Shown one piece after another: positions 36,723-64,000 of a DNA stretch of 64,000 nucleotides (its first letter is position 1; the number at the start of each line of letters is the position of its first letter). Position numbers and translations under genes: made by a program. The notes under the pieces are model-generated. The model had not been told where the DNA came from, ran no database searches, and saw only the letters and a program-made list of their open reading frames with translations. The stretch covers positions 1-64,000 of the forward strand of contig NZ_AULG01000028.1 of NCBI RefSeq assembly GCF_000425165.1, given 5' to 3'. This DNA is from Photobacterium halotolerans DSM 18316 (GTDB taxonomy: Bacteria; Pseudomonadota; Gammaproteobacteria; Enterobacterales; Vibrionaceae).

Positions 36723-39056
36723 TTACATTTCTAAATCGCTTTTCTCGACAGAGTTGACTGTACAGACCGAGAGCACACCTGGCACGGTTGCCAGGCAATT
36801 GATGATGATGGCATTCTCGCTATCTACATCGGTGCCTGACATATCGGCGGTGGAAGTAATCAGTACATCAGTCAGTACGCCCGCCAGTAAGCTGACCACG
36901 CCATCGGTGCTGACCGCCAGCAATGACGCCGCAGAGACGTGATAGGTCACGCTGCTGTTATCAACCTGCTGTTTAGTACCGTCAGAATAGTAGGCGTGGG
37001 TTGCGACAGTGAAAATCTCTGAACCAAGCAACTCAACGGCCAGCTCACCAGAGTAATCTGACTCGATCCGAACACGTAGCAACTCAGCAGGACCAACCGT
37101 CAGGGCTGCTGTCGCCGAGCTGCCCTCATAGTTCGCAGTAATGGTCGCTGAACCAACGGATACGCCCTGCGCCAGACCGTCTGCTGTGATAGTCGCGACA
37201 CTGGTATCACTGCTTTGCCAGCTCACCAGTTCCGTGACATCCTGAGTGGACGTATCCGTGAAGGTGGCTGTGGCCGTGAACTGCTGGGTCAAACCGTTGG
37301 CGATAGTTGCCGTTGGCGGCGTCACTGTCAGTGACGTTACCGTTGCAGCCGTGACTTCCAGGATTACGGCCGGACTGGTTTGCCCCTGATAGCTGGCAGT
37401 CATCTCTGTCGTCCCCATTGCCAGCGATTGTGCCAGGCCTGAGGTGTTGATACTGGCGACACTGGTGTCCGAGCTGACCCAACTGACCAGATGGGTGACA
37501 TCCTGATCCGGGCCGCTGGTAAAGCTTGCCGTGGCGGTGAACTGCTGAGTGGTGCCGTTAGCAATACTGGCGGCGCCTGGACTTACAGTAATCGCGCTTA
37601 TTTCCGCCGGTGTAACTGAAAGTGGAATGTCGGCGCTGGTGACACCCTGATAGTGGGCGGTCACGACTGTATTGCCTTCATTCAGGCCGTGGGCTAAACC
37701 TGTGGCAGAAATAGTTGCGACACTGGTATCGTCGCTTTTCCAGCTCACCAGATCGGTCACATCCAGGGTGCTGCCGTCGGAGAATTTGGCGGTGGCGGTA
37801 AACTGCTGGGTGGTGCCGTTAGCAATACTGGCCGATTCCGGTGTAATGGTGACAGACAGCACGGTTGCTGCGGTCACAGTCAGGTTCGCGTTGTTGCTGA
37901 CGGTCCCGCCAAAGCTGGCCGTGATCACGGCAGATCCCGTCGCGAGTGTACTGACAACCCCGGTTCCGGACACAGTCGCGACAGCGGTATCGCTGCTGTG
38001 CCATGTCGCTTGCGCACTGACATCCTGCGAGGTGCTGTTATTAAAATGCGCGATGGCCGTGTAGGCATGGCTGGTGCCTTTGGCTAAGCTCAGAGTGCCG
38101 GGTGTGACTTGCACTGAATCAACTGCGGCAGCCGTAACGGTGAGATTCACAGGATCGCTGGGTAGGGTACCGAAACTGGCGGTGATGTTGGCCGTTCCTG
38201 CACTTTCGGCATCGACCAAACCCGTTGTTGAAACTGTCGCGGCAGTTGTATTGTCGCTGTTCCAGGTGACCTGAGAGGTTAAGTCTTGTGTCGAGCCATC
38301 GGAGAACTGACCTGTGGCAGTAAACTGCTGTTGTGTGCCAGCGACCAATGACGCCGTAGCGGGTGAGAGGTGAATGGAATCCAGTGTAGCCGTTGTCACC
38401 GTCATCACCGCCTGATTACTGCTCACGCCTTCAAATTGCCCGGTGACCGTTGCTGACCCTGACGCCTTGGCGAAGACCATGCCGCCGGTGCCCACCTCAA
38501 CGGTACTGGCATCCGTGGTATTCCAGATGGTCTGGCTGGTGACATCTTCACGGCTGCCATCGTGATAGTAAGCCAGTGCGGTAAACTGCACCTGCGTCCC
38601 AGCGGCGGCTGACACCTGTCCGGGAGTGATTTGCAGCTGACTGACTGTGTGGCCGCCCGTTACCGTAATCACAACGCCGCCGCCACTGACACCGGCATAG
38701 CTGCAGGAAATGGTGGCTTCGCCGGCTGCAACGGCCTGGATCACGCCTTGGTCACTGACGGTGGCAACCGATTCATCGCTGCTGGTACATTGCGCGTTCT
38801 GGGTGACATCTTTTTTATCTTTGTTAGCGTAAATGGCATTTACTTTAAAAGTAAGGGAGCTACCTGCTTCCGCTGTGTTCGCGCTGGGGATGATTTCCAG
38901 GTTACGAACCGTTTTGCCGCCCTTATCTACGGCACTGGTGTCGTTGTCTTTCTGGCTGGGCAAACCGCTACCTTCTCCGCCGCAACCTGCCAGGGTCAGC
39001 GTCATGAGAAAAATACCCAGCCAGAGTGTTAAATACCGGCAAATGTTGTTCTTCAT
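36723..39056 (-). CDS. Lipoprotein of tandem bacterial Ig-like (Big_2) domains
   Basis: 777 residues. A type II signal peptide ends in TLTLAGCGGEGS, so the mature protein is a lipoprotein. From about residue 48 to 650 there are seven consecutive Big_2 units of about 87 residues, each with the pattern VxSLxVTPxxASIANGTTQQFTA, a D-V-T-x-LVSW strand, and SDTSVATI. A divergent eighth unit closes the chain. Units 5-7 are the most alike, which suggests recent duplication. Big_2 domains are typical of intimin-like adhesins, but here no barrel is attached: the barrel is a separate protein encoded just upstream, whose stop overlaps this start by four bases. Likely surface or periplasmic adhesion role; unproven. 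Confidence 0.85.
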   Translation of the reverse strand: MKNNICRYLTLWLGIFLMTLTLAGCGGEGSGLPSQKDNDTSAVDKGGKTVRNLEIIPSANTAEAGSSLTFKVNAIYANKDKKDVTQNAQCTSSDESVATVSDQGVIQAVAAGEATISCSYAGVSGGGVVITVTGGHTVSQLQITPGQVSAAAGTQVQFTALAYYHDGSREDVTSQTIWNTTDASTVEVGTGGMVFAKASGSATVTGQFEGVSSNQAVMTVTTATLDSIHLSPATASLVAGTQQQFTATGQFSDGSTQDLTSQVTWNSDNTTAATVSTTGLVDAESAGTANITASFGTLPSDPVNLTVTAAAVDSVQVTPGTLSLAKGTSHAYTAIAHFNNSTSQDVSAQATWHSSDTAVATVSGTGVVSTLATGSAVITASFGGTVSNNANLTVTAATVLSVTITPESASIANGTTQQFTATAKFSDGSTLDVTDLVSWKSDDTSVATISATGLAHGLNEGNTVVTAHYQGVTSADIPLSVTPAEISAITVSPGAASIANGTTQQFTATASFTSGPDQDVTHLVSWVSSDTSVASINTSGLAQSLAMGTTEMTASYQGQTSPAVILEVTAATVTSLTVTPPTATIANGLTQQFTATATFTDTSTQDVTELVSWQSSDTSVATITADGLAQGVSVGSATITANYEGSSATAALTVGPAELLRVRIESDYSGELAVELLGSEIFTVATHAYYSDGTKQQVDNSSVTYHVSAASLLAVSTDGVVSLLAGVLTDVLITSTADMSGTDVDSENAIIINCLATVPGVLSVCTVNSVEKSDLEM

Positions 39057-56995: not shown

Positions 56996-57023
56996 TTTAC
57001 ACCTTTGGCTGTGCGCGTATAAT
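56996..57023 (+). promoter_or_regulatory. Sigma-70 promoter for the PTPS-like gene
   Basis: TTTACA (56996-57001) and a perfect TATAAT (57018-57023) with a 16-base spacer. The -10 box covers an ATG at 57022, which therefore cannot be the translation start; this places the start at GTG 57067. Confidence 0.75.
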
Positions 57024-57066
57024 GCCCAGCTCCGAAAACGACAATCATTTCTGTAAGGACGTCAGC

Positions 57067-57945
57067 GTGAAGCTATTTGTCAGAGATCTCACCGTTATTG
57101 ATGCCTCCTACCTGTGCCCGACCAGAGGTATGGTAGGAGAAAGCTGGATTCTGGACGTGGTGATGTCTGGCGAGCTGAATGAAATGAGCATGGTGCTGGA
57201 TTTCAGCCGTGTCAAAAAGCAGATTAAACAGCTGGTGGATCAGTATGTTGATCACCGTCTGCTAGTGCCGGCTGCCAATGCATCGATCAAAATGGCCGCG
57301 ACTCAGCCGGGTTATGCGACCCTGGATCTGCTTCGTGGTGATAAAAGTATTCATCTGCATTGCCCGGAAGAAGCCTATTGCCTGGTGGATGCTGACGCCA
57401 TCACCATAGAGACAGTCACCCGGCATTTGCATCAGGTACTGTCAGGTAAGCTGCCGGACAATGTCCAGGGCCTTGAACTGGTATTACGTCACGAAAAGAT
57501 TGATGGTGCGTTTTATCACTACAGCCACGGCCTGAAAAAGCATGACGGCAACTGTCAGCGCATAGCACACGGTCACCGCTCACCGATTGAGCTGTATGTT
57601 GATGGCCAGCGTGACCCTAAACTGGAAGCAGACTGGGCGACGCGCTGGACGGATATCTATCTGGGCACTGAAGAAGATCAGGTGAGTATTTCAGAGCTGA
57701 ACCTGAGTGAGCACGCCGCTGGCGCTAGTGATGACACCCATTATGGTTTCCGCTATACCGCGCCGCAGGGTCTGTTTGAGCTTGCGATCGCCAAAAGCGA
57801 GACGGAAATGATAGGCACAGATACCACGATTGAGCTGCTGGCACACTATATTGCTGCCGCCGTAAAACCTGCTATTGGTGCGCATCAGGCGTTGGACGTC
57901 GTTGCCTATGAAGGGGTTGGTAAAGGTGCGATGGCGAGTCTGTAA
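57067..57945 (+). CDS. Tandem 6-pyruvoyl-tetrahydropterin-synthase-like protein
   Basis: About 292 residues, twice the size of QueD or PTPS. The first half has the PTPS strand-helix MVLDFSRVKKQIKQLVDQYVDHRLL but lacks the zinc-binding HGH (GESW stands there). The second half keeps FYHYSHGL and CQRIAHGHRSPIELYVDG, with the catalytic Cys and the zinc His residues. So one degenerate and one complete unit appear fused. It may make a carboxy- or pyruvoyl-pterin in the queuosine or pterin pathways; similar long proteins in Vibrio are usually annotated simply as PTPS. The GTG start has AAGGAC seven bases upstream and the promoter argument above. Confidence 0.8.
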   Translation: MKLFVRDLTVIDASYLCPTRGMVGESWILDVVMSGELNEMSMVLDFSRVKKQIKQLVDQYVDHRLLVPAANASIKMAATQPGYATLDLLRGDKSIHLHCPEEAYCLVDADAITIETVTRHLHQVLSGKLPDNVQGLELVLRHEKIDGAFYHYSHGLKKHDGNCQRIAHGHRSPIELYVDGQRDPKLEADWATRWTDIYLGTEEDQVSISELNLSEHAAGASDDTHYGFRYTAPQGLFELAIAKSETEMIGTDTTIELLAHYIAAAVKPAIGAHQALDVVAYEGVGKGAMASL

Positions 57946-58046
57946 TCGTACCGGGAAACCGGTTATTTCCCTTCAAAGCATGTCTTAAACAGCAGTGCGC
58001 CCGCGGGAACCCTAACAGCGAGCGCAATGTCTGAAGTTTAGCTTGT

Positions 58047-58215
58047 ATGTCGCGCTTGAGTCTGGTGGTTCATTTGGCATTGTCTGATGCGCGCCAGGTA
58101 CTCTTTGTTGGTGCAAAGAGTACCCAGAAAGCCCCTTTTGTTCTTTGGTGTTGTCCGGGTCGGTTGCAGGCGCTCCCGGCGCCGACAACCTGAAAATTCG
58201 TCCTGAATTTTCCCC
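58047..58215 (+). repeat. Interspersed structured repeat, copy 1
   Basis: About 170 bases starting ATGTCGCGCTTG and ending TTTTCCCC. It holds two hairpins: GGTACTCTTTG/CAAAGAGTACC (58097-58107 and 58114-58124) and GAAAATTC/GAATTTTC (58192-58199 and 58205-58212), with a conserved GGCGCTCCCGGCGCCGAC block between. Closely related copies lie at 58364 and 63882. An open frame from the shared ATG exists in this copy but is broken in copy 3, so it is unlikely to be a gene. Confidence 0.85.
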
Positions 58216-58363
58216 TGGGGGAGAGGCAAGCATCAAACTTCTCATTTCTGCTTTAAAAGTACAGCCAGAAACCCAGTTAAATTATTTATGATTCAATATA
58301 TTACCGTCATTACCATGCAGGCGGCGAGTACGGCTACGGGTTGCTGTGTCTGATTCTGATGGC

Positions 58364-58534
58364 ATGTCGCGCTTGAGTGCTGTGCTTTTCTCACCATCTT
58401 CTGATGCGCGCCAGGTACTCTTTGTGGGGGCAAAGAGTACCCAGAAAGCCCCTTTTTGTTCTCTGGTGTTGTCCGGGGCGGTTGTAGGCGCTCCCGGCGC
58501 CGACAACCTGAAAATTCGTCCTGAATTTTCCCCC
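58364..58534 (+). repeat. Interspersed structured repeat, copy 2
   Basis: Same element as at 58047, same orientation, about 150 bases further on. Hairpins at 58414-58424/58431-58441 and 58510-58517/58523-58530. After the shared first 15 bases it differs from copy 1 for about 25 bases, then matches closely to the end. The bases between the two copies (58216-58363) contain no gene. Confidence 0.85.
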
Positions 58535-58574
58535 TGCAGGAGTGGGTTTCTTGGATTTAGCCTGACTTGTTGTT

Positions 58575-59816
58575 TCAGTCCGCCTCACGCTGTTGTTGAA
58601 TCTCAGCCACTTTATCGCAAATGTAGTCGGCAATTGGCATGGCAGAGGTCGCTGCCGGTGACGGCGCGTTACACACGTGCAGGCTGCGCGGGCTGTCTGC
58701 AAACAGAAAGTCATGAACCAGCGTGCCGTCTTTCAGTACGGCCTGAGCACGAATACCTGCCGGGTAGGGCTCCAGATCGCTCAGCGTCAGGCCCGGACAG
58801 TATTTACGCACCCGTTCAAGATACCCGGCTTTCCACCAGGCATCTTTGAATTCCCGCAATCCGGTTTTCAGGTGCTTGCCGGTGACATGCCAGAAACCGG
58901 GGAAAGCCAGCATGTCCAGGCTGTCACGCAGGCTGAAATTAAATCGCCCGTAACCCTCGCGTTTAAATCCCTGTACCGCGTTCGGGCCAACCGTCACCGA
59001 GCCATCTATCATGCGTGTCAGGTGAACACCTAAAAAGGGTAGGGAAGGGTCCGGGATCGGATAGATAAGGTGACGGACAATCTGATTGTGTCTGGCGGCC
59101 AGGCGGTAATATTCTCCGCGGTAGGGGATGATCTGAAAATCGGTCTCCAACCCCATCATGTTGGTCAGGCGGTCGGCCATTAACCCGCCGCAACACACCA
59201 GAAAACGGCCTTTGACAGAAAAAGAATCCGTACTCGCTGTGTGGCTCTGGCGGCAGGTCAGTTCGATGTGATCACTGCGCTCTGCGATGGCTGTCACTTG
59301 GGTATCCAGGGCCGTTTCGCCGCCTGAGGCGGTAAAGTCACTGGCCATGTGCTCAGTCACCAGACGGTAATCCACTATGCTGGTCGCTGGGACAAACAGT
59401 GCCCCCAGCCCGCAAATGTTCGGCTCTCTTGCCTGCAGTTGCGCCTGATCCAGCGCTTCAACTTCAATCCCGTTTTCACGGCAACGTGCCAGCAGATCCT
59501 GCATCCGGCGCACTTCCGTCTCATTGGTGGCAACCAGCAATTTGCCGCAGTTGTCGACCGGAATAGCATGCTGGCGACAAAAATCCACAGTACGTTGCAC
59601 GCCTTCTTTGCAAAACCGAGCTTTCAGGCTGCCGGGCGCATAATACACACCGGCATGGATCACACCGCTGTTGTGGCCGGTCTGGTGACACGCGAGCGCG
59701 CTTTCTTTTTCAATCAGCAGAATCTTGCTGCCAGGATACCGGCGTAACAAAGCATTGGCTGTGGCGACACCCACAATGCCCCCGCCAATCACCAGATAAT
59801 CGTAATACTCATTCAT
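58575..59816 (-). CDS. lhgO: L-2-hydroxyglutarate oxidase
   Basis: 413 residues of the DAO/GlpA FAD family. FAD site YLVIGGGIVGVATANALLRR; HQTGHNSGVIHAGVYYAPGSLKA is the signature of L-2-hydroxyglutarate oxidase/dehydrogenase. FLGVHLTRMIDGSVTVGPNAV and a C-terminal SPAATSAMPIADYI complete the fold. It oxidises L-2-hydroxyglutarate to 2-oxoglutarate and feeds electrons to the membrane. AAAGGA precedes ATG 59816. Two repeat copies lie just after its stop codon. Confidence 0.93.
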   Translation of the reverse strand: MNEYYDYLVIGGGIVGVATANALLRRYPGSKILLIEKESALACHQTGHNSGVIHAGVYYAPGSLKARFCKEGVQRTVDFCRQHAIPVDNCGKLLVATNETEVRRMQDLLARCRENGIEVEALDQAQLQAREPNICGLGALFVPATSIVDYRLVTEHMASDFTASGGETALDTQVTAIAERSDHIELTCRQSHTASTDSFSVKGRFLVCCGGLMADRLTNMMGLETDFQIIPYRGEYYRLAARHNQIVRHLIYPIPDPSLPFLGVHLTRMIDGSVTVGPNAVQGFKREGYGRFNFSLRDSLDMLAFPGFWHVTGKHLKTGLREFKDAWWKAGYLERVRKYCPGLTLSDLEPYPAGIRAQAVLKDGTLVHDFLFADSPRSLHVCNAPSPAATSAMPIADYICDKVAEIQQQREAD

Positions 59817-60004
59817 CGCGGATCCTTTGCAATTGTAACTTAGGCCAGATCAGGCCGACATCATCATGATTTATAAGATATTTAAACACCAAGCAGTCAG
59901 AGTGGCAAAAGGATAAATTGTCTTTATCAGGCTTGCTTTTTTCTTATCGCATCTTGCGATACGCGCGCTCTGGTGGTTTAATAGCCGCCATCACCTCATT
60001 TGGA
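59817..60004. other. Noncoding gap upstream of lhgO
   Basis: Region between the lhgO start and the large stem-loop at 60005. It should hold the leftward lhgO promoter; no gene or exact operator is visible. Confidence 0.5.
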
Positions 60005-60084
60005 GTTAACGCCTGCATGAATCACTAACCCCTGACATCCTTTGAACTTTTTCTTTTGGATCCGCAGGGTTAGTGGGCGTTAAC
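60005..60084 (+). promoter_or_regulatory. Large stem-loop in the leader of the ABC-F gene
   Basis: GTTAACGCC (60005-60013) pairs with GGCGTTAAC (60076-60084), and CACTAACCCCTG (60023-60034) pairs, with one bulged C, with CAGGGTTAGTG (60065-60075). The loop holds a T-rich stretch. A very short reading frame, ATG AAT CAC TAA, starts at 60017 inside the left arm. It lies 130 bases before the ABC-F start. Leader attenuation is known for several ABC-F genes, so a regulatory role is plausible but not shown. Confidence 0.55.
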
Positions 60085-60214
60085 CGTCTTTGTCTGAGCA
60101 GTCACCGACTGTGAATCACCGTATTGTGATTGGTTGTGCTACTCAGATCTGTCTGCAAAAAAGCAATCTCTTCTGACGGTAATGTCTCTCCCTGCGCTTG
60201 CACCGGAGGTCTTT

Positions 60215-61792
60215 ATGACATTATTGCAAGCTCAGTCTCTGACTGTTTTACTTCCCCACGGGGAACCGCTGTTTTCTGATGTTTCACTCACTTTAGATCG
60301 TGAAACCACCGCACTGGTCGGCCGTAACGGCAGTGGCAAATCTGTGCTGGCGGCACTGTTAAGCGGAGCCCGCCAGCCGGATGAAGGCCGGGTGATCAGG
60401 CACTCAAACATCGCATACTTACCTCAGCTGACGGTGCAGAACGACTTGTCGGCGTTGGGCACTGTCGCACAAGCACTGGGTGTGGAGGGCTGTCTGCAAG
60501 CGTTGCAACGTATAGCCGCCGGCAGTTGCGATCCGGCGGATTTTGAGGCAGCAGGCGATCAATGGGATCTGCCCGATTCCCTGTCCCGCCAGCTGGCAGA
60601 GCTGGGATTACCGTCCGATCCCGGACAGTCTTGCACCAGCCTGAGCGGCGGTGAGCTGACACGGTTGCGATTATGGCTCTGCTTTCGCAGTGACGCTGAA
60701 TTGCTCATTCTTGATGAGCCGTCAAACCATCTGGATCGGCATGGAAGAGAATGGCTGTCGCAGCAAATCACCCGCTTTCAGGGCGGCATATTGCTGATCA
60801 GCCATGATCAATCCTTACTGAAAAGCGCGGATCGCATTGTCGAACTCAGCCACACAGGGTTAGCCTGCTATGGCACAGATTTTGTGCAATACCGGCAACA
60901 GAAACATCATGAAACCCAGTTACTGGCAACACGGCTGTCGAAAGCAAAACAGCAAATCAGCGCTATCAATCGCCAGCATCAGCGTAATGAAGAAAAAGCG
61001 CAGCGCCGGGCGGCGGCCGGTAAGCGGGACAGACACGCTGGCAGCCAGTCCATGCTGCTGCTCGATTATCAGAAAAACGCGGCAGAAAGCGCGGTATCAT
61101 CCAGGAAGCATCAGCAACATCAGCAGCTTGAACATGCGCAGCAGCAGTTGAAGTCGCTGCAGGAGAAAGTGGATACCGCCAAGCCGCTGAGCTTCAGTAC
61201 CGACAGTGCGAACAAGCGAAGTGCGCGTTTACTGACGGTCACTCAATTGGGCCTGCACCGGGGGCAGTTGCCTGCCATCAGCCGAACTGTCTGGTATGGC
61301 GATAAAATTCACCTGCGCGGCAGTAACGGCACAGGTAAGTCGACGTTGCTGAAAACGCTGCTGGGTGATATGCCCGTCAAATCGGGTGAGATTCACAGGC
61401 ACGGGCCGCTTTGTTATCTCGACCAGCATTTCTCCTTATTTGATTTGCAGGCCAGCCTGCTTGATAACCTGACGCGTCTGTGCCCTGCCTATACGGCCGC
61501 TGAGCTGCGAACCCTGGCAGCGTGTATAGGTTTTCGCCGTGAAAGAGTCGGGCAGCAAATGTCGACCCTGAGTGGCGGAGAACGAATGCGACTGGCGATG
61601 CTGGTGGTGAGTCATCAGCAGCAGGAAGGGGTTTTGTTGCTGGATGAGCCGGACAACCACCTTGATTTCGACGGAAAATCCATGATGGCGCAGGCATTGA
61701 GTGAGCACAGAGGCAGCTTCATTCTGGTCAGCCATGATCAGGATTTTGTTGATGCGTGCGGTGTGAATCAGCGCTGGGATCTTTCCAGATAA
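60215..61792 (+). CDS. ABC-F family ATPase
   Basis: About 525 residues with two ABC domains and no membrane segment. Walker A motifs GRNGSGKS and GSNGTGKS, signatures SLSGGELTR and TLSGGERMR, and Walker B motifs LLILDEPSNHLD and VLLLDEPDNHLD. A long Gln/Lys/Arg-rich helical linker lies between (about 230-340). ABC-F proteins bind the ribosomal E site and ease translation stalls; some give antibiotic resistance. The exact subfamily is unclear. GGAGG at 60205-60209 fixes ATG 60215. Confidence 0.9.
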   Translation: MTLLQAQSLTVLLPHGEPLFSDVSLTLDRETTALVGRNGSGKSVLAALLSGARQPDEGRVIRHSNIAYLPQLTVQNDLSALGTVAQALGVEGCLQALQRIAAGSCDPADFEAAGDQWDLPDSLSRQLAELGLPSDPGQSCTSLSGGELTRLRLWLCFRSDAELLILDEPSNHLDRHGREWLSQQITRFQGGILLISHDQSLLKSADRIVELSHTGLACYGTDFVQYRQQKHHETQLLATRLSKAKQQISAINRQHQRNEEKAQRRAAAGKRDRHAGSQSMLLLDYQKNAAESAVSSRKHQQHQQLEHAQQQLKSLQEKVDTAKPLSFSTDSANKRSARLLTVTQLGLHRGQLPAISRTVWYGDKIHLRGSNGTGKSTLLKTLLGDMPVKSGEIHRHGPLCYLDQHFSLFDLQASLLDNLTRLCPAYTAAELRTLAACIGFRRERVGQQMSTLSGGERMRLAMLVVSHQQQEGVLLLDEPDNHLDFDGKSMMAQALSEHRGSFILVSHDQDFVDACGVNQRWDLSR

Positions 61793-61833
61793 TTCGACTA
61801 TGCTATCTGAGGCTTATGGATAAGGAGAACATT

Positions 61834-62277
61834 ATGTCACAAACGCCATCGTCACAAACCTCAACGTCGCATAGCCTGAGCGGCCATTGTTTGTGCGGCA
61901 AAGTCGGGCTCAAATCAACCAGCGGCGCTTTGCATGCTGAGGCATGCCATTGCGGCATGTGCAGAAAGTGGAGCGGCGGGCCGTATTTGTCGGTAGCCGC
62001 TGGCACTGAAGTGAGCTTTACCGGCGAAGAAAACATCAGTCGGTTTTCTTCCTCTGAATGGGGGGAGAGAGGGTTCTGCAAACACTGTGGCAGCCATTTG
62101 TTTTATTTCCTCAAGCCAACAGGCCAGTACATGGTAGCGGCAGGTTTGCTTGATCAGGAAAGTCAGCTGGAGATGGATCAACAAATCTTCATCGACAAAA
62201 AACCGGCTTACTATGCGTTCAGCAACAACACCGAAAACCTGACCGAAGAAGAAGTCTTCGCCAAATTTGCCCCTTAA
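61834..62277 (+). CDS. GFA-family zinc protein
   Basis: About 147 residues of the GFA (glutathione-dependent formaldehyde-activating enzyme-like) family. Zinc ligands in GHCLCGKVGL, ACHCGMCRKWSGGPYLSV and GFCKHCGSHLFY. Most members have no proven enzymatic role. A good AAGGAG site precedes ATG 61834. It follows the ABC-F gene by 41 bases and may be cotranscribed. Confidence 0.88.
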   Translation: MSQTPSSQTSTSHSLSGHCLCGKVGLKSTSGALHAEACHCGMCRKWSGGPYLSVAAGTEVSFTGEENISRFSSSEWGERGFCKHCGSHLFYFLKPTGQYMVAAGLLDQESQLEMDQQIFIDKKPAYYAFSNNTENLTEEEVFAKFAP

Positions 62278-62286
62278 GCAACAGCC

Positions 62287-62315
62287 ATCCCGGGCCGCAA
62301 CCAGCGGCTCGGGAT
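62287..62315. terminator. Convergent hairpin, GFA gene / CI repressor
   Basis: ATCCCGGGCCGC (62287-62298) and GCGGCTCGGGAT (62304-62315) form a twelve-pair stem with one G-T pair and a five-base loop, placed exactly between two converging stop codons. The leftward side lacks a T run and the rightward side has one only 15 bases later. Confidence 0.65.
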
Positions 62316-62324
62316 AGTGTTCGC

Positions 62325-63014
62325 TCACTGTTTTTTCAAACTCACAGCCACTCGGCCGATCACTTTGATCTCGTTGTCATTCACTTCAAGGCGGGTGTGA
62401 CCAAACATCACCGCCAGCTTGTTCGGTAGCCGCTGGATAGGGTTAATCGACAGGCGCCCGTCCATGTCAATCAGGTAATCACCGCTCACGGCATCGTTCT
62501 GGCTCTTATCAATCAGGAATCGTCCTTCATGGGTTTCCACTTCAATGGTAGATGCCGCATTCAGGTTCCAGGACTGGAAAATGCGCTTAGCGTAGGGGAT
62601 CGTTCCTGTACTGAGCAATTTGCCATTGCTCAGGCTGTAGCTGGACAGGGTGACGACAGTGTCTGATGCCGCGGTAACCGTAGTCGTTTGTTGTTGTGCT
62701 TTGTAGTCATTTGAGGTTTCGGCAATGGCATCATGACCAGCAGATTGGCTGCTCGTGAACGAGTGATGCAGTGTTTCCAGCGGAAAATCCGCCGGCAAGA
62801 TCAGTTGATGAACAGGAATGCCAGTACGTAAATGCGTACGAACGACCAACTCATGAGAGGTGCGATTATGGGTATTCCAGGTGCTGAAAGTGGTTTTCGG
62901 CACGTCAAACACCGCTGCCATCTCACCAAAGGAAGCACAATGGGTTAACTCTCTCAGATTCGAAGTAAAGTCATGACCTTTCAGATAGTCAAAAATAAGG
63001 ATTTTTTTACTCAT
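62325..63014 (-). CDS. Phage CI-type repressor
   Basis: About 229 residues. The N-terminal part (NLRELTHCASFGEMAAVFDVPKTTFSTWN) is the helix-turn-helix of the phage CI repressor family found in P2-like and similar phages. The C-terminal part resembles the S24/LexA-type peptidase fold (GRFLIDKSQNDAVSGDYLIDMDGRLSINPIQRLP), here without an obvious catalytic Ser-Lys pair that I could assign. It is divergent from a small gene at 63182, the classic arrangement of a phage immunity region. No other phage genes are seen to its left. ATG 63014 is likely; a start at 63038 is possible. Confidence 0.75.
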   Translation of the reverse strand: MSKKILIFDYLKGHDFTSNLRELTHCASFGEMAAVFDVPKTTFSTWNTHNRTSHELVVRTHLRTGIPVHQLILPADFPLETLHHSFTSSQSAGHDAIAETSNDYKAQQQTTTVTAASDTVVTLSSYSLSNGKLLSTGTIPYAKRIFQSWNLNAASTIEVETHEGRFLIDKSQNDAVSGDYLIDMDGRLSINPIQRLPNKLAVMFGHTRLEVNDNEIKVIGRVAVSLKKQ

Positions 63015-63132
63015 GTACAGTCCAGTCAGTGTGATCAAACTCGAAAATGATTGTCAAAAGCCATCTTTGTTGGTTAAAATTATTGACTGCATTCGGTTGA
63101 GGACTCACACTGTACGTGTTCAACAAATTAGC

Positions 63133-63159
63133 GCAAAAATTGGCAAAAAGTGCGCAAAA
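63133..63159. promoter_or_regulatory. Three helically phased GCAAAA repeats
   Basis: GCAAAA occurs at 63133, 63143 and 63154, spaced 10 and 11 bases, so all three face the same side of the DNA. They lie between the CI-type repressor and the small rightward gene, where operator sites would be expected. Confidence 0.5.
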
Positions 63160-63181
63160 CCAACGCGTAAGGATACCACTC

Positions 63182-63400
63182 ATGGCAAGGAATCAAATAG
63201 CGATTGATGTACCCTGTATCGCAAAAGTTGAGATTCGACGACAATTTGGCGTTCACTTCCGTACTCTGATCCTGTTACAAGCCAAAGGCATACCTTTCTT
63301 CGATATCAAGCGGCCCTGTCCGCGGCTGATGACTCAGGCCATGCGGAAATGGCGATATCGAGCCAGCGCATCTTGCAACTACATGGAGGCGCGGGCATGA
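63182..63400 (+). CDS. Small protein of unknown function beside the CI repressor
   Basis: 72 residues, basic, beginning MARNQIAIDVPCIAKVEIRR and containing GIPFFDIKRPCPRLMTQAMRKW. No family recognised. Its position divergent from a CI-type repressor is that of a phage Cro/CII-like or early gene, and its basic character is compatible with nucleic-acid binding. Its stop overlaps the next start as ATGA, which supports it being real. AAGG lies about ten bases upstream. Confidence 0.55.
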   Translation: MARNQIAIDVPCIAKVEIRRQFGVHFRTLILLQAKGIPFFDIKRPCPRLMTQAMRKWRYRASASCNYMEARA

Positions 63401-63846
63401 GCAAAATCACTCTCCATGAACTGAATATTCAGTCTGCCGATTTCACCGAAATTCTGGCCGGACGAAAAACACATCAGGTGTGCCTCAATCACCGCCAATA
63501 TGCAGTCGGCGATGTGCTTATTCTGCGCGAACTCGACGAGAACGGCGAGGGCACTGGGCAGGAAATGAACTCACTCATCACCCATGTCGAGCAAGGTAAC
63601 ACGGTCGGCCTTGAAGACGGTTGGTGCGTATTATCGCTGGCAAACACCACGCCTTTGCTGGGTATTCGTCTGATTGGCTATCTGCGTGATCGCCTGAAAG
63701 AGCACTGCGATTACACAGAAACCGCGTATCCGCTGATCAAGAAAGCAGGCAGTACCGCCAGCCAGGCGAAACGGACTGTGCAGGCAGGCCGATGCTGGGT
63801 TGATGAGGCGAATCATTTTTTGAAGAAGTTTCCGGTGGAGTCGTAG
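63397..63846 (+). CDS. DUF3850 (ASCH/PUA-like) protein
   Basis: 149 residues. The N-terminal 85 residues show the DUF3850 pattern ITLHELNIQSADFTEILAGRKTHQV, YAVGDVLILRELDENGEGTG and THVEQGNTVGLEDGWCVLSL, a small ASCH/PUA-like RNA-binding fold common in phages. The C-terminal 60 residues are extra and basic. It is translationally coupled to the small gene upstream. Confidence 0.8.
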   Translation: MSKITLHELNIQSADFTEILAGRKTHQVCLNHRQYAVGDVLILRELDENGEGTGQEMNSLITHVEQGNTVGLEDGWCVLSLANTTPLLGIRLIGYLRDRLKEHCDYTETAYPLIKKAGSTASQAKRTVQAGRCWVDEANHFLKKFPVES

Positions 63847-63881
63847 TATTTTCTTTTTGTGTTAGCTCAGATTCTCAGGGT

Positions 63882-64000
63882 ATGTCGCGCTTGGGTTTGG
63901 TGGTTCATTTGGCATCTTAGTTCGCGCGTCAGGTACTCTTTGTTGGGGCAAAGAGTACCCAGAAAGCCCCTTGTTGTTCTTTGGTGTGGTCCGGGCGGTT
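63882..64000 (+). repeat. Interspersed structured repeat, copy 3 (runs off the window)
   Basis: Same element as at 58047 and 58364, same orientation, starting ATGTCGCGCTTG 35 bases after the DUF3850 stop. The first hairpin, GGTACTCTTTG/CAAAGAGTACC, lies at 63932-63942 and 63949-63959. The second half is outside the window. The frame from the shared ATG meets TAG after 12 codons here. Confidence 0.82.

Follow-up and report, generated by a model that had tools for sequence, protein, structure and literature searches.

Arrays of a structured repeat face inward around variable, largely defensive gene slots in Photobacterium halotolerans and its relatives

Three copies of a repeat near the end of the window

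The subject of this analysis is a repeat of 176–178 nucleotides, here called R, in a stretch of 64,000 nucleotides from Photobacterium halotolerans DSM 18316 (Vibrionaceae; RefSeq assembly GCF_000425165.1, contig NZ_AULG01000028.1, positions 1 to 64,000 of the forward strand). We refer to this whole stretch as the window. Arrays of R bracket gene slots elsewhere in the genome and in related genomes, and these paired inward rims around largely defensive cargo, which go beyond what the window alone reveals, are the main feature of R.

An initial annotation, made from the letters alone, had placed copies of R at 58047, 58364 and 63882, and all three were found there on the + strand. Copy 1 (58047..58222, +; covariance-model score 207.3 bits) and copy 2 (58364..58540, +) are complete and were recovered by BLAST and by profile search. 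Copy 3 (63882..64000, +) is cut by the window end and runs to about 64054–64057 of the contig (C20). It is the first of an array leading to a slot beyond the window, with the next copies at 64163, 64444 and 65916 of the contig, which stops at 66659.

Copies 1 and 2 sit between the 3' ends of two convergent genes. The left one (57022..57945, +), a putative 6-pyruvoyl-tetrahydropterin synthase gene, has a match in 52 of 52 genomes of the genus (query 57070–57945); the right one (58575..59816, -) was named lhgO in the initial annotation. The two copies had been described as flanking the 3' end of lhgO, and this needs correcting, as both lie between the gene end at 57945 and the lhgO 3' end at 58575. 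Copy 3 is located just after a gene ending at 63846. The genes between the two same-orientation arrays (60134..63846, taken without regard to strand), presumably ABC-F-like, GFA-like, CI-like and DUF3850-like, are conserved at the same site in related species and do not form a variable slot.

R is a structured, non-coding repeat family

R begins with ATGTCGCGC and ends with CCCTGGG, and the covariance model built for it has 176 positions. Common to the three window copies are the 5' ATGTCGCGC, a ACTCTTTG/CAAAGAGT hairpin, a GGCGCTCCCGGCGCC block and an AAAATTC/GAATTTT hairpin, just as the shared start, hairpins and block had first been described. A single copy folds with a z-score of -2.28, an equally good fold arising in 2 of 200 shuffles.

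We aligned 77 copies, hand-thinned from 98 non-redundant sequences among 109 near-complete copies from the window's genome (G000; 4.69 Mb in 53 contigs) and a second Photobacterium genome (G062). The alignment contains four stems with 37 pairs, and 96.7% of cells are paired. In copy 1, stem A occupies 58048..58096 (+; arms 58048-58055 and 58089-58096, alignment columns 2-9 with 46-53) and is almost invariant, with 98.9% of cells paired. It is followed by hairpin B (GGTACTCTTTG...CAAAGAGTACC; 58097..58124, +), the stem richest in compensatory changes, by the nearly invariant hairpin D (GGTTG..GGCGC TCCC GGCGCC..CAACC; 58162..58190, +; 98% of cells paired) and by hairpin E (GAAAATTCG...TGAATTTTC; 58192..58212, +; 99.4% of cells paired), which has double changes at columns 156-177 and 162-171.

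The initial annotation had proposed compensatory change as a check on the stems, and the result came out in its favour: 93 cells are changed on both sides of a stem against 26.1±3.9 in shuffles (0 of 500 as high), and such cells fall to 1-8 when the partner is slid as a control. Pairs with a double change (6 versus 5.3) and further pair types (22 versus 21.3) are no more numerous than in shuffles, so the covariation signal derives from a small number of well-populated positions, at columns 55-80, 56-79, 64-71, 156-177 and 162-171 of hairpins B and E. Wobble pairs in this alignment are mixed, those at columns 156-177 and 164-169 favouring the given strand and those at 55-80 and 131-149 the other, and indicate no single strand of action.

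R preserves no reading frame: frame 0 is interrupted by an internal TAG in copy 3, as had been noted, and by a stop close to where copy 1 ends, and is open throughout copy 2. R is a structured, dispersed, non-coding repeat family with compensatory changes. Rfam gave no match at E<=5 in 57900-64000, and the sole match at gathering score in nine further loci was a cspA element, namely a cspA thermoregulator (RF01766, 87.7 bits) at L135:2986-3392 (-).

Inward-facing arrays border gene slots

The expectation of further copies in the genome was borne out well above chance. The window's genome contains 67 BLAST matches to R, and profile search of 16 fetched stretches identified 72 copies, complete or partial. 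Within arrays, start-to-start spacing is mostly 230-320 bp. The initial description of a constant orientation holds within the window and breaks down elsewhere in the genome, where arrays face each other across slots. Islands with both orientations have + copies on the left and - copies on the right, so that ATGTCGCGC lies outward and the AAAATTC hairpin points toward the cargo; some sites hold copies in one orientation only.

We counted orientations in four species (72, 69, 65 and 60 copies), with sites matched between G000, G062, G031 and G069 by their flank genes. Neighbouring copies less than 1 kb apart comprise 128 same-way, 1 convergent and 0 divergent pairs, and those 1-15 kb apart comprise 39 convergent, 3 divergent and 40 same-way pairs. 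The 39 convergent slots span 1.7-10.3 kb, with a median of 4.6 kb. The ratio of 39 to 3 corresponds to p=6e-9 under independence, which fails as the four species share sites. G062 taken alone gives 11:1 (p=0.006), and a hand count in a genome of another genus of the family (G192) gives 6:1; pooled, the two give 17:2 (p=0.0007).

Between-species comparisons at sites S8, S11 and S12 reveal homology of about 86-99% through the flanks that ends at the outermost R. Arrays of R bracket the slots with their 3' ends toward the cargo, flank homology stops at R at the sites compared, and the rims stay where the cargo differs. This anatomy is well supported.

Slot content is variable and rich in defence genes

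Turnover was counted for open reading frames (ORFs) of >=150 aa at sites seen in >=2 species, a same-site counterpart being one with >=60% identity. Only 26 of 131 ORFs between convergent copies have such a counterpart, versus 232 of 277 in the flanks (p=2e-36, with each ORF counted as independent). The corresponding figures are 72/94 between same-way copies, 8/8 between divergent copies and 34/62 at open contig ends. A Fic gene that lies between same-way copies is therefore not slot cargo.

To describe the cargo, 30 slot ORFs from four Photobacterium genomes, large ones first, were compared with PADLOC models (26 from the sites that supplied the 131 ORFs and four from single-genome sites). 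Twenty-five of the 30 proteins match at E<=1e-10 (G000 8/10, G062 7/10, G031 and G069 together 10/10), and one of the G062 matches, a UvrD/PD-DEXK protein, may be a cross-match. Among 10 flank proteins, two gave matches (to a WYL regulator and to a GlgB-like model), and neither is by itself a defence effector. Ten ORFs near R in G192 yielded two strong matches, to dGTPase and to OLD, each lying between convergent copies, plus a weak one.

Single sites illustrate how content differs between species. At S8, Gabija is found in G000, a type II restriction set (Vsr, methylase and endonuclease) in G062, Lamassu in G031 and PDC-S06 with PDC-S73 in G069. Across species, S11 holds PDC-S06, Schlafen-AlbA, Gabija or Lamassu. 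S12 holds Shango or Gabija, falls at contig breaks in G031, and in G069 contains a type I-E CRISPR-Cas (clustered regularly interspaced short palindromic repeats) locus with Cas1e, Cas6e and Cas5e, at which four CRISPR repeats were seen. At S9, G031 has a retron I-B, and G000 has an integron-like set in which intI is cut. Other slots contain Borvo (BovA) with a TIR-TPR protein, AbiO/Nhi, a pPIWI-associated nuclease, a ParE toxin with a Phd/YefM antitoxin, and unknown genes. The R slots thus combine the conserved flanks and the variable, defence-rich content by which defence hot spots are recognized.

No gene is common to all island centres beyond ORFs that overlie the repeats themselves. Once insertion sequences and repeat-overlapping ORFs are set aside, few cargo moves between sites are seen. 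Examples of genes at different R sites in different species are a MesX/MetE pair, at S1 and S9, and a 175-aa gene, at S3 and S4.

Rims persist at their sites

For 151 copies at ten sites, we scored the best match in another species by site and side. It falls at the same site and same side for 117 copies (expected 6.7%), at the same site and other side for 6 (expected 5.9%) and at another site for 28. Site fidelity is alike for slot-facing (40/49) and outermost (48/58) copies. Within genomes, identity between the left and right rims of a site averages 0.845, versus 0.829 for copies of different sites, and same-side copies are 0.90 alike. The arrays are therefore old residents tied to their core neighbours rather than ends that arrive with cargo, and sequence exchange between the two rims of a site is rare.

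Gain and loss of R can be glimpsed at two sites. At the window site of two other carriers, G073 and G018, the flank gene and lhgO are directly adjacent, with no R and a hairpin plus T-run between them, which suggests either that an unremarkable intergenic region acquired R in the ancestry of the four species or that the others have lost it. No target duplication was noticed by eye at these R-free counterparts, where the intergenic DNA is too diverged for the join to be read. At site C13a, G062 has R, cargo and an opposite R, where G000 has a single R without cargo. The join in G000 falls within 33 bp that match the R 3' end on each side, which fits a deletion between same-way R ends and, conceivably, the reverse event.

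R is also a landing place for an IS110-type insertion sequence of ~1.33 kb, which abuts R near position 70/71, in the 3' arm of hairpin B, in all seven copies observed in the fetched stretches; in two of these, R can be followed on either side of the element. These copies lie at L068:12527-14026, L164:3576-5091 and L078:11906-13261 and at the ends of contigs C1, C9, C16 and C24 of G000. The fixed position is reminiscent of insertion sequences that target repetitive extragenic palindromic (REP) elements, as these appear in the parts consulted of PMC1525189, PMC11208160 and PMC11187229. Separately, a ~235-bp repeat occurs within islands (L047:13223-17498, L049:644-846, L061, L062 and G062 islands). 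By eye it resembles an IS110-type transposase start that follows a CTAACGAATGAC end, and one pattern places its opposite end immediately upstream of R in 10 of 247 copies.

Distribution in genomes and on plasmids

R is present by BLAST in 7 of 52 genomes of the genus (G000, G018, G031, G035, G062, G069 and G073). Judged by the gene kept in all 52, the six other carriers are the nearest to the window's species (84-96% identity, the rest <=79%), and the carriers therefore look like one clade. The covariance model matches 11 of 148 genomes of the order, strict filters making the match counts lower bounds. These are G000, G192, seven genomes of one genus in another family (f17), whose matches are mostly about 212 nt at 25-54 bits, and two genomes with matches to part of the 3' half only. 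Within genomes, R can be concentrated on one replicon: in G062, whose two contigs measure 3.37 and 1.35 Mb, the smaller contig, the second chromosome, has 61 of the 65 matches and 12 of the 13 sites (p=3e-6 for sites), and all 8 matches listed for G073 (10 found) are on one contig, C2.

Relatives of R occur in nine plasmid records besides a Photobacterium one. In the three that were opened (loci L205-L207: NZ_CP089604.1, NZ_CP120542.1 and NZ_AP028130.1; V. furnissii, Providencia and V. fluvialis), a single R lies beside a Qnr-family gene with no bracket within 14 kb. The gene at its 3' side encodes a hypothetical protein on two plasmids and a PDC-S68 candidate defence ATPase on the V. fluvialis plasmid. 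A phage origin of R was considered and set aside, with no match in viral contigs (exact pattern) or in phage records.

Elsewhere in the window, a 143-nt unit occurs three times in tandem at 37168-37832, with 261-bp spacing and 66-72% similarity to the reference copy.

Discussion

R and known repeat families

The initial annotation had suggested that R is either a mobile palindromic element or an RNA family. What stands is a dispersed, structured, non-coding family; a strict REP element does not, nor, as far as its ends show, does a miniature inverted-repeat transposable element (MITE). A small RNA is conceivable, with wobble pairs that favour no single strand and no Rfam match to R. In the parts consulted of the literature, a REP element is a palindrome of 20-40 bp (PMC3733652), and REP repeats and the bacterial interspersed mosaic elements (BIMEs) that they form are associated with a RAYT transposase and with REP-targeting insertion sequences (PMC3733652, PMC2817692, PMC1525189). 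R resembles REP/BIME repeats in being dispersed, intergenic, structured and an IS110-type target, and differs from them in its 177 nt, its four conserved stems and its position at the rims of gene slots. We rejected R as a REP element on its size (176 positions, 37 pairs, 4 helices) and because the RAYT (Y1) transposase, PF01797, is missing in five of the seven carriers (G000, G018, which is 81% complete, G031, G069 and G073); it is present in G062 and G035. R is unlike a MITE in that its ends, ATGTCGCGCTTG and CCCTGGGGGAG, do not form an inverted repeat.

Among enterobacterial intergenic repeats are RU-1, also named ERIC, and RU-2. R resembles both in size range, intergenic position and structure, the comparison being by description alone, and is unlike them in forming convergent rims of gene slots; the consulted part of PMC2759123 gives 127 bp for RU-1 and 168 bp for RU-2.

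A proposed fixed-rim model of cargo exchange

Accessory-gene hot spots have conserved flanks and fast-changing content, many without recognizable mobile elements, and in this R slots are like them. They differ in that a structured, inward-polar repeat stands between core and cargo and in the many sites per genome. We favour the interpretation, at a probability of roughly one half, that R forms the fixed inner rims of accessory-gene hot-spot slots, largely for defence, whose cargo is swapped by homologous recombination of flank plus rim. Strains would exchange cargo with flank and rim as recombination arms, the DNA arriving by uptake or other transfer, a process akin to the homologous exchange that the consulted part of PMC5635113 proposes for hot spots without mobile elements. 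Recombination between R copies would alter array length and may delete material between same-way copies, and inverted rims would be unable to delete the cargo between them. Divergent rims would give equal protection against deletion, so the inward polarity needs another cause. That rims are convergent and not divergent implies a directional property of R, for which candidates are a polar block and a 3' side preferred for landing.

Several observations weigh against this interpretation. Plain exchange does not account for convergent rather than divergent polarity, and the covariation means that structure is under selection, a constraint that simple recombination arms would not require. With one genome per species and no within-species exchange observed, recombination at the rims, like the cause of polarity, is something we infer. 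The boundary at R is also not perfect: part of the in-slot DNA is common to species at S2, S3, S4 and S14, often as edge sequence of ~280-400 bp, with two in-slot genes common to species at S3, and S11 and S13 have one short in-slot edge match each between species. Outside the family, 10 of 11 fetched f17 loci hold a single intergenic copy and the other a divergent pair, with no bracket.

The defensive character of the cargo has limits as well. The PADLOC slot sample was non-random, with large ORFs chosen, and hypothetical genes, toxin-antitoxin genes or integron-type cassettes fill many slots. The CRISPR locus at S12 of G069 lacks a right rim. Defence genes also occur outside slots: of 12 OLD-TOPRIM matches in five genomes, slots account for 4, what looks like one conserved non-slot gene accounts for 5, and the other 3 are elsewhere or unplaced. 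Nor is the chromosome bias, strong in some genomes, general, since 4 of the 8 matches listed for G035 (11 found) are on its larger contig and at least 3 of 60 in G069 are on C1.

Alternative readings of the inward polarity

Polarity would be explained directly if a site-specific recombinase inserted cargo at the 3' side of R, with R as a polar attachment platform that is integron-derived or related. We consider this unlikely. Chromosomal integrons carry anti-phage cassettes, and R islands resemble them in their occurrence in Vibrionaceae, their defence cargo, and attC-like sites and intI relics in some islands. Two integron integrase genes of G000 are truncated at R, in two islands (L055:8251-8937 and L057:5782-6057), and two G062 slots hold 120-bp sequences that look attC-like. 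The inner edges of slots often have either a short motif ending GTTA(G) or an attI-like element of ~280 bp. The latter starts with TAACATTTTATT, has ACGACATNATGTCGT palindromes, lies on one rim of many islands and is maybe a former attI; examples are found at L048:3108-3386, L049:2613-2893, L050:11777-12061, L060:405-732 and L062:432-704 and in several G062 islands. A tail of the form AACTCGTTaTTG...GTTAG (also given as AACTCGTTATTG...GTTAG) fits the strict pattern in 25 of 72 slot-facing copies and fails in the other 47.

R islands differ from chromosomal integrons in occupying many sites rather than one array, in the failure to find an intact IntI and in having cargo bracketed on both sides. 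A single IntI match over the family cut-off occurs in 0 of the 7 carrier genomes, G073 having one split over two frames, and multi-gene systems of 4-8 kb are large for integron cassettes. An attC site ends RYYYAAC...GTTRRRY and is acted on by IntI; R starts with ATGTCGCGC and ends with CCCTGGG, and with the missing IntI this led us to reject R as an attC. A serine resolvase gene beside one island (L047:194-796, -) was considered as the responsible enzyme, its orthologues of 76-100% identity occurring in exactly the 7 carriers among the 52 genomes. Homologues of 42-50% are also in 5 non-carriers, the carriers look like one clade, and we rejected the candidate because the association is confounded by common descent.

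A bolder form of the docking idea, tentative and in our judgement still rather improbable, is that R is a polar, structure-recognised docking site at whose 3' side defence modules are inserted or replaced, a cargo-exchange system not described before, with sockets along one chromosome and diverged forms common to other Vibrionaceae. Among the open-access papers that the literature searches listed, titles and abstract starts gave no account of R or of inward rims, preprints and most subscription papers being outside that scope.

Transcription offers another possible source of polarity. R might be an insulator or terminator kept facing inward to shield slot and core from mutual read-through, a role that its conserved structure would suit but that we think improbable. 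At the window site the convergent genes are separated by a hairpin plus T-run in the two relatives that lack R there and by R arrays in the carriers, a T-rich spacer often follows tandem copies, and a terminator-like site (58533-58546) overlaps the end of copy 2. A simple scan, however, gave 2 terminator-like sites in 57900-58640 versus 1.3±1.2 in shuffles, and no orientation rule was seen at the 11 f17 loci. Core neighbours point into the slot in 51 cases and away in 36 (p=0.13), and cargo edge genes divide 39:39; on these counts we rejected gene direction as the cause of R polarity.

Doubtful to a similar degree is the proposal that REP-like repeats gather passively in poorly constrained hot spots, with polarity left by history. 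The fixed position of the IS110-type element in 7 of 7 copies, like REP-targeting insertion sequences (PMC1525189, in the part consulted), and the single dispersed R relatives elsewhere would be expected of such repeats. The separate evolution of the rims on the two sides of a site, seen at ten sites, and the same inward polarity in a second genus argue against it. Finally, each island could be a single large transposon whose terminal inverted repeats are R, as the inverted copies with the same outer end ATGTCGCGC might suggest, but this is very improbable and we disfavour it, given that the left and right rims of a site are scarcely closer to each other (0.845) than those of different sites (0.829) and same-side copies are closer (0.90), that arrays keep their sites in four species while cargo changes, and that no target duplication was noticed by eye.

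R provides a sequence tag for finding defence-exchange slots and candidate new defence genes in these genomes, and the mainly unknown genes of several slots (for example in L048, L050, L128 and L131) are candidates for such systems. It also makes testable how hot spots without a resident recombinase hold their borders and what directional signal a structured repeat carries.

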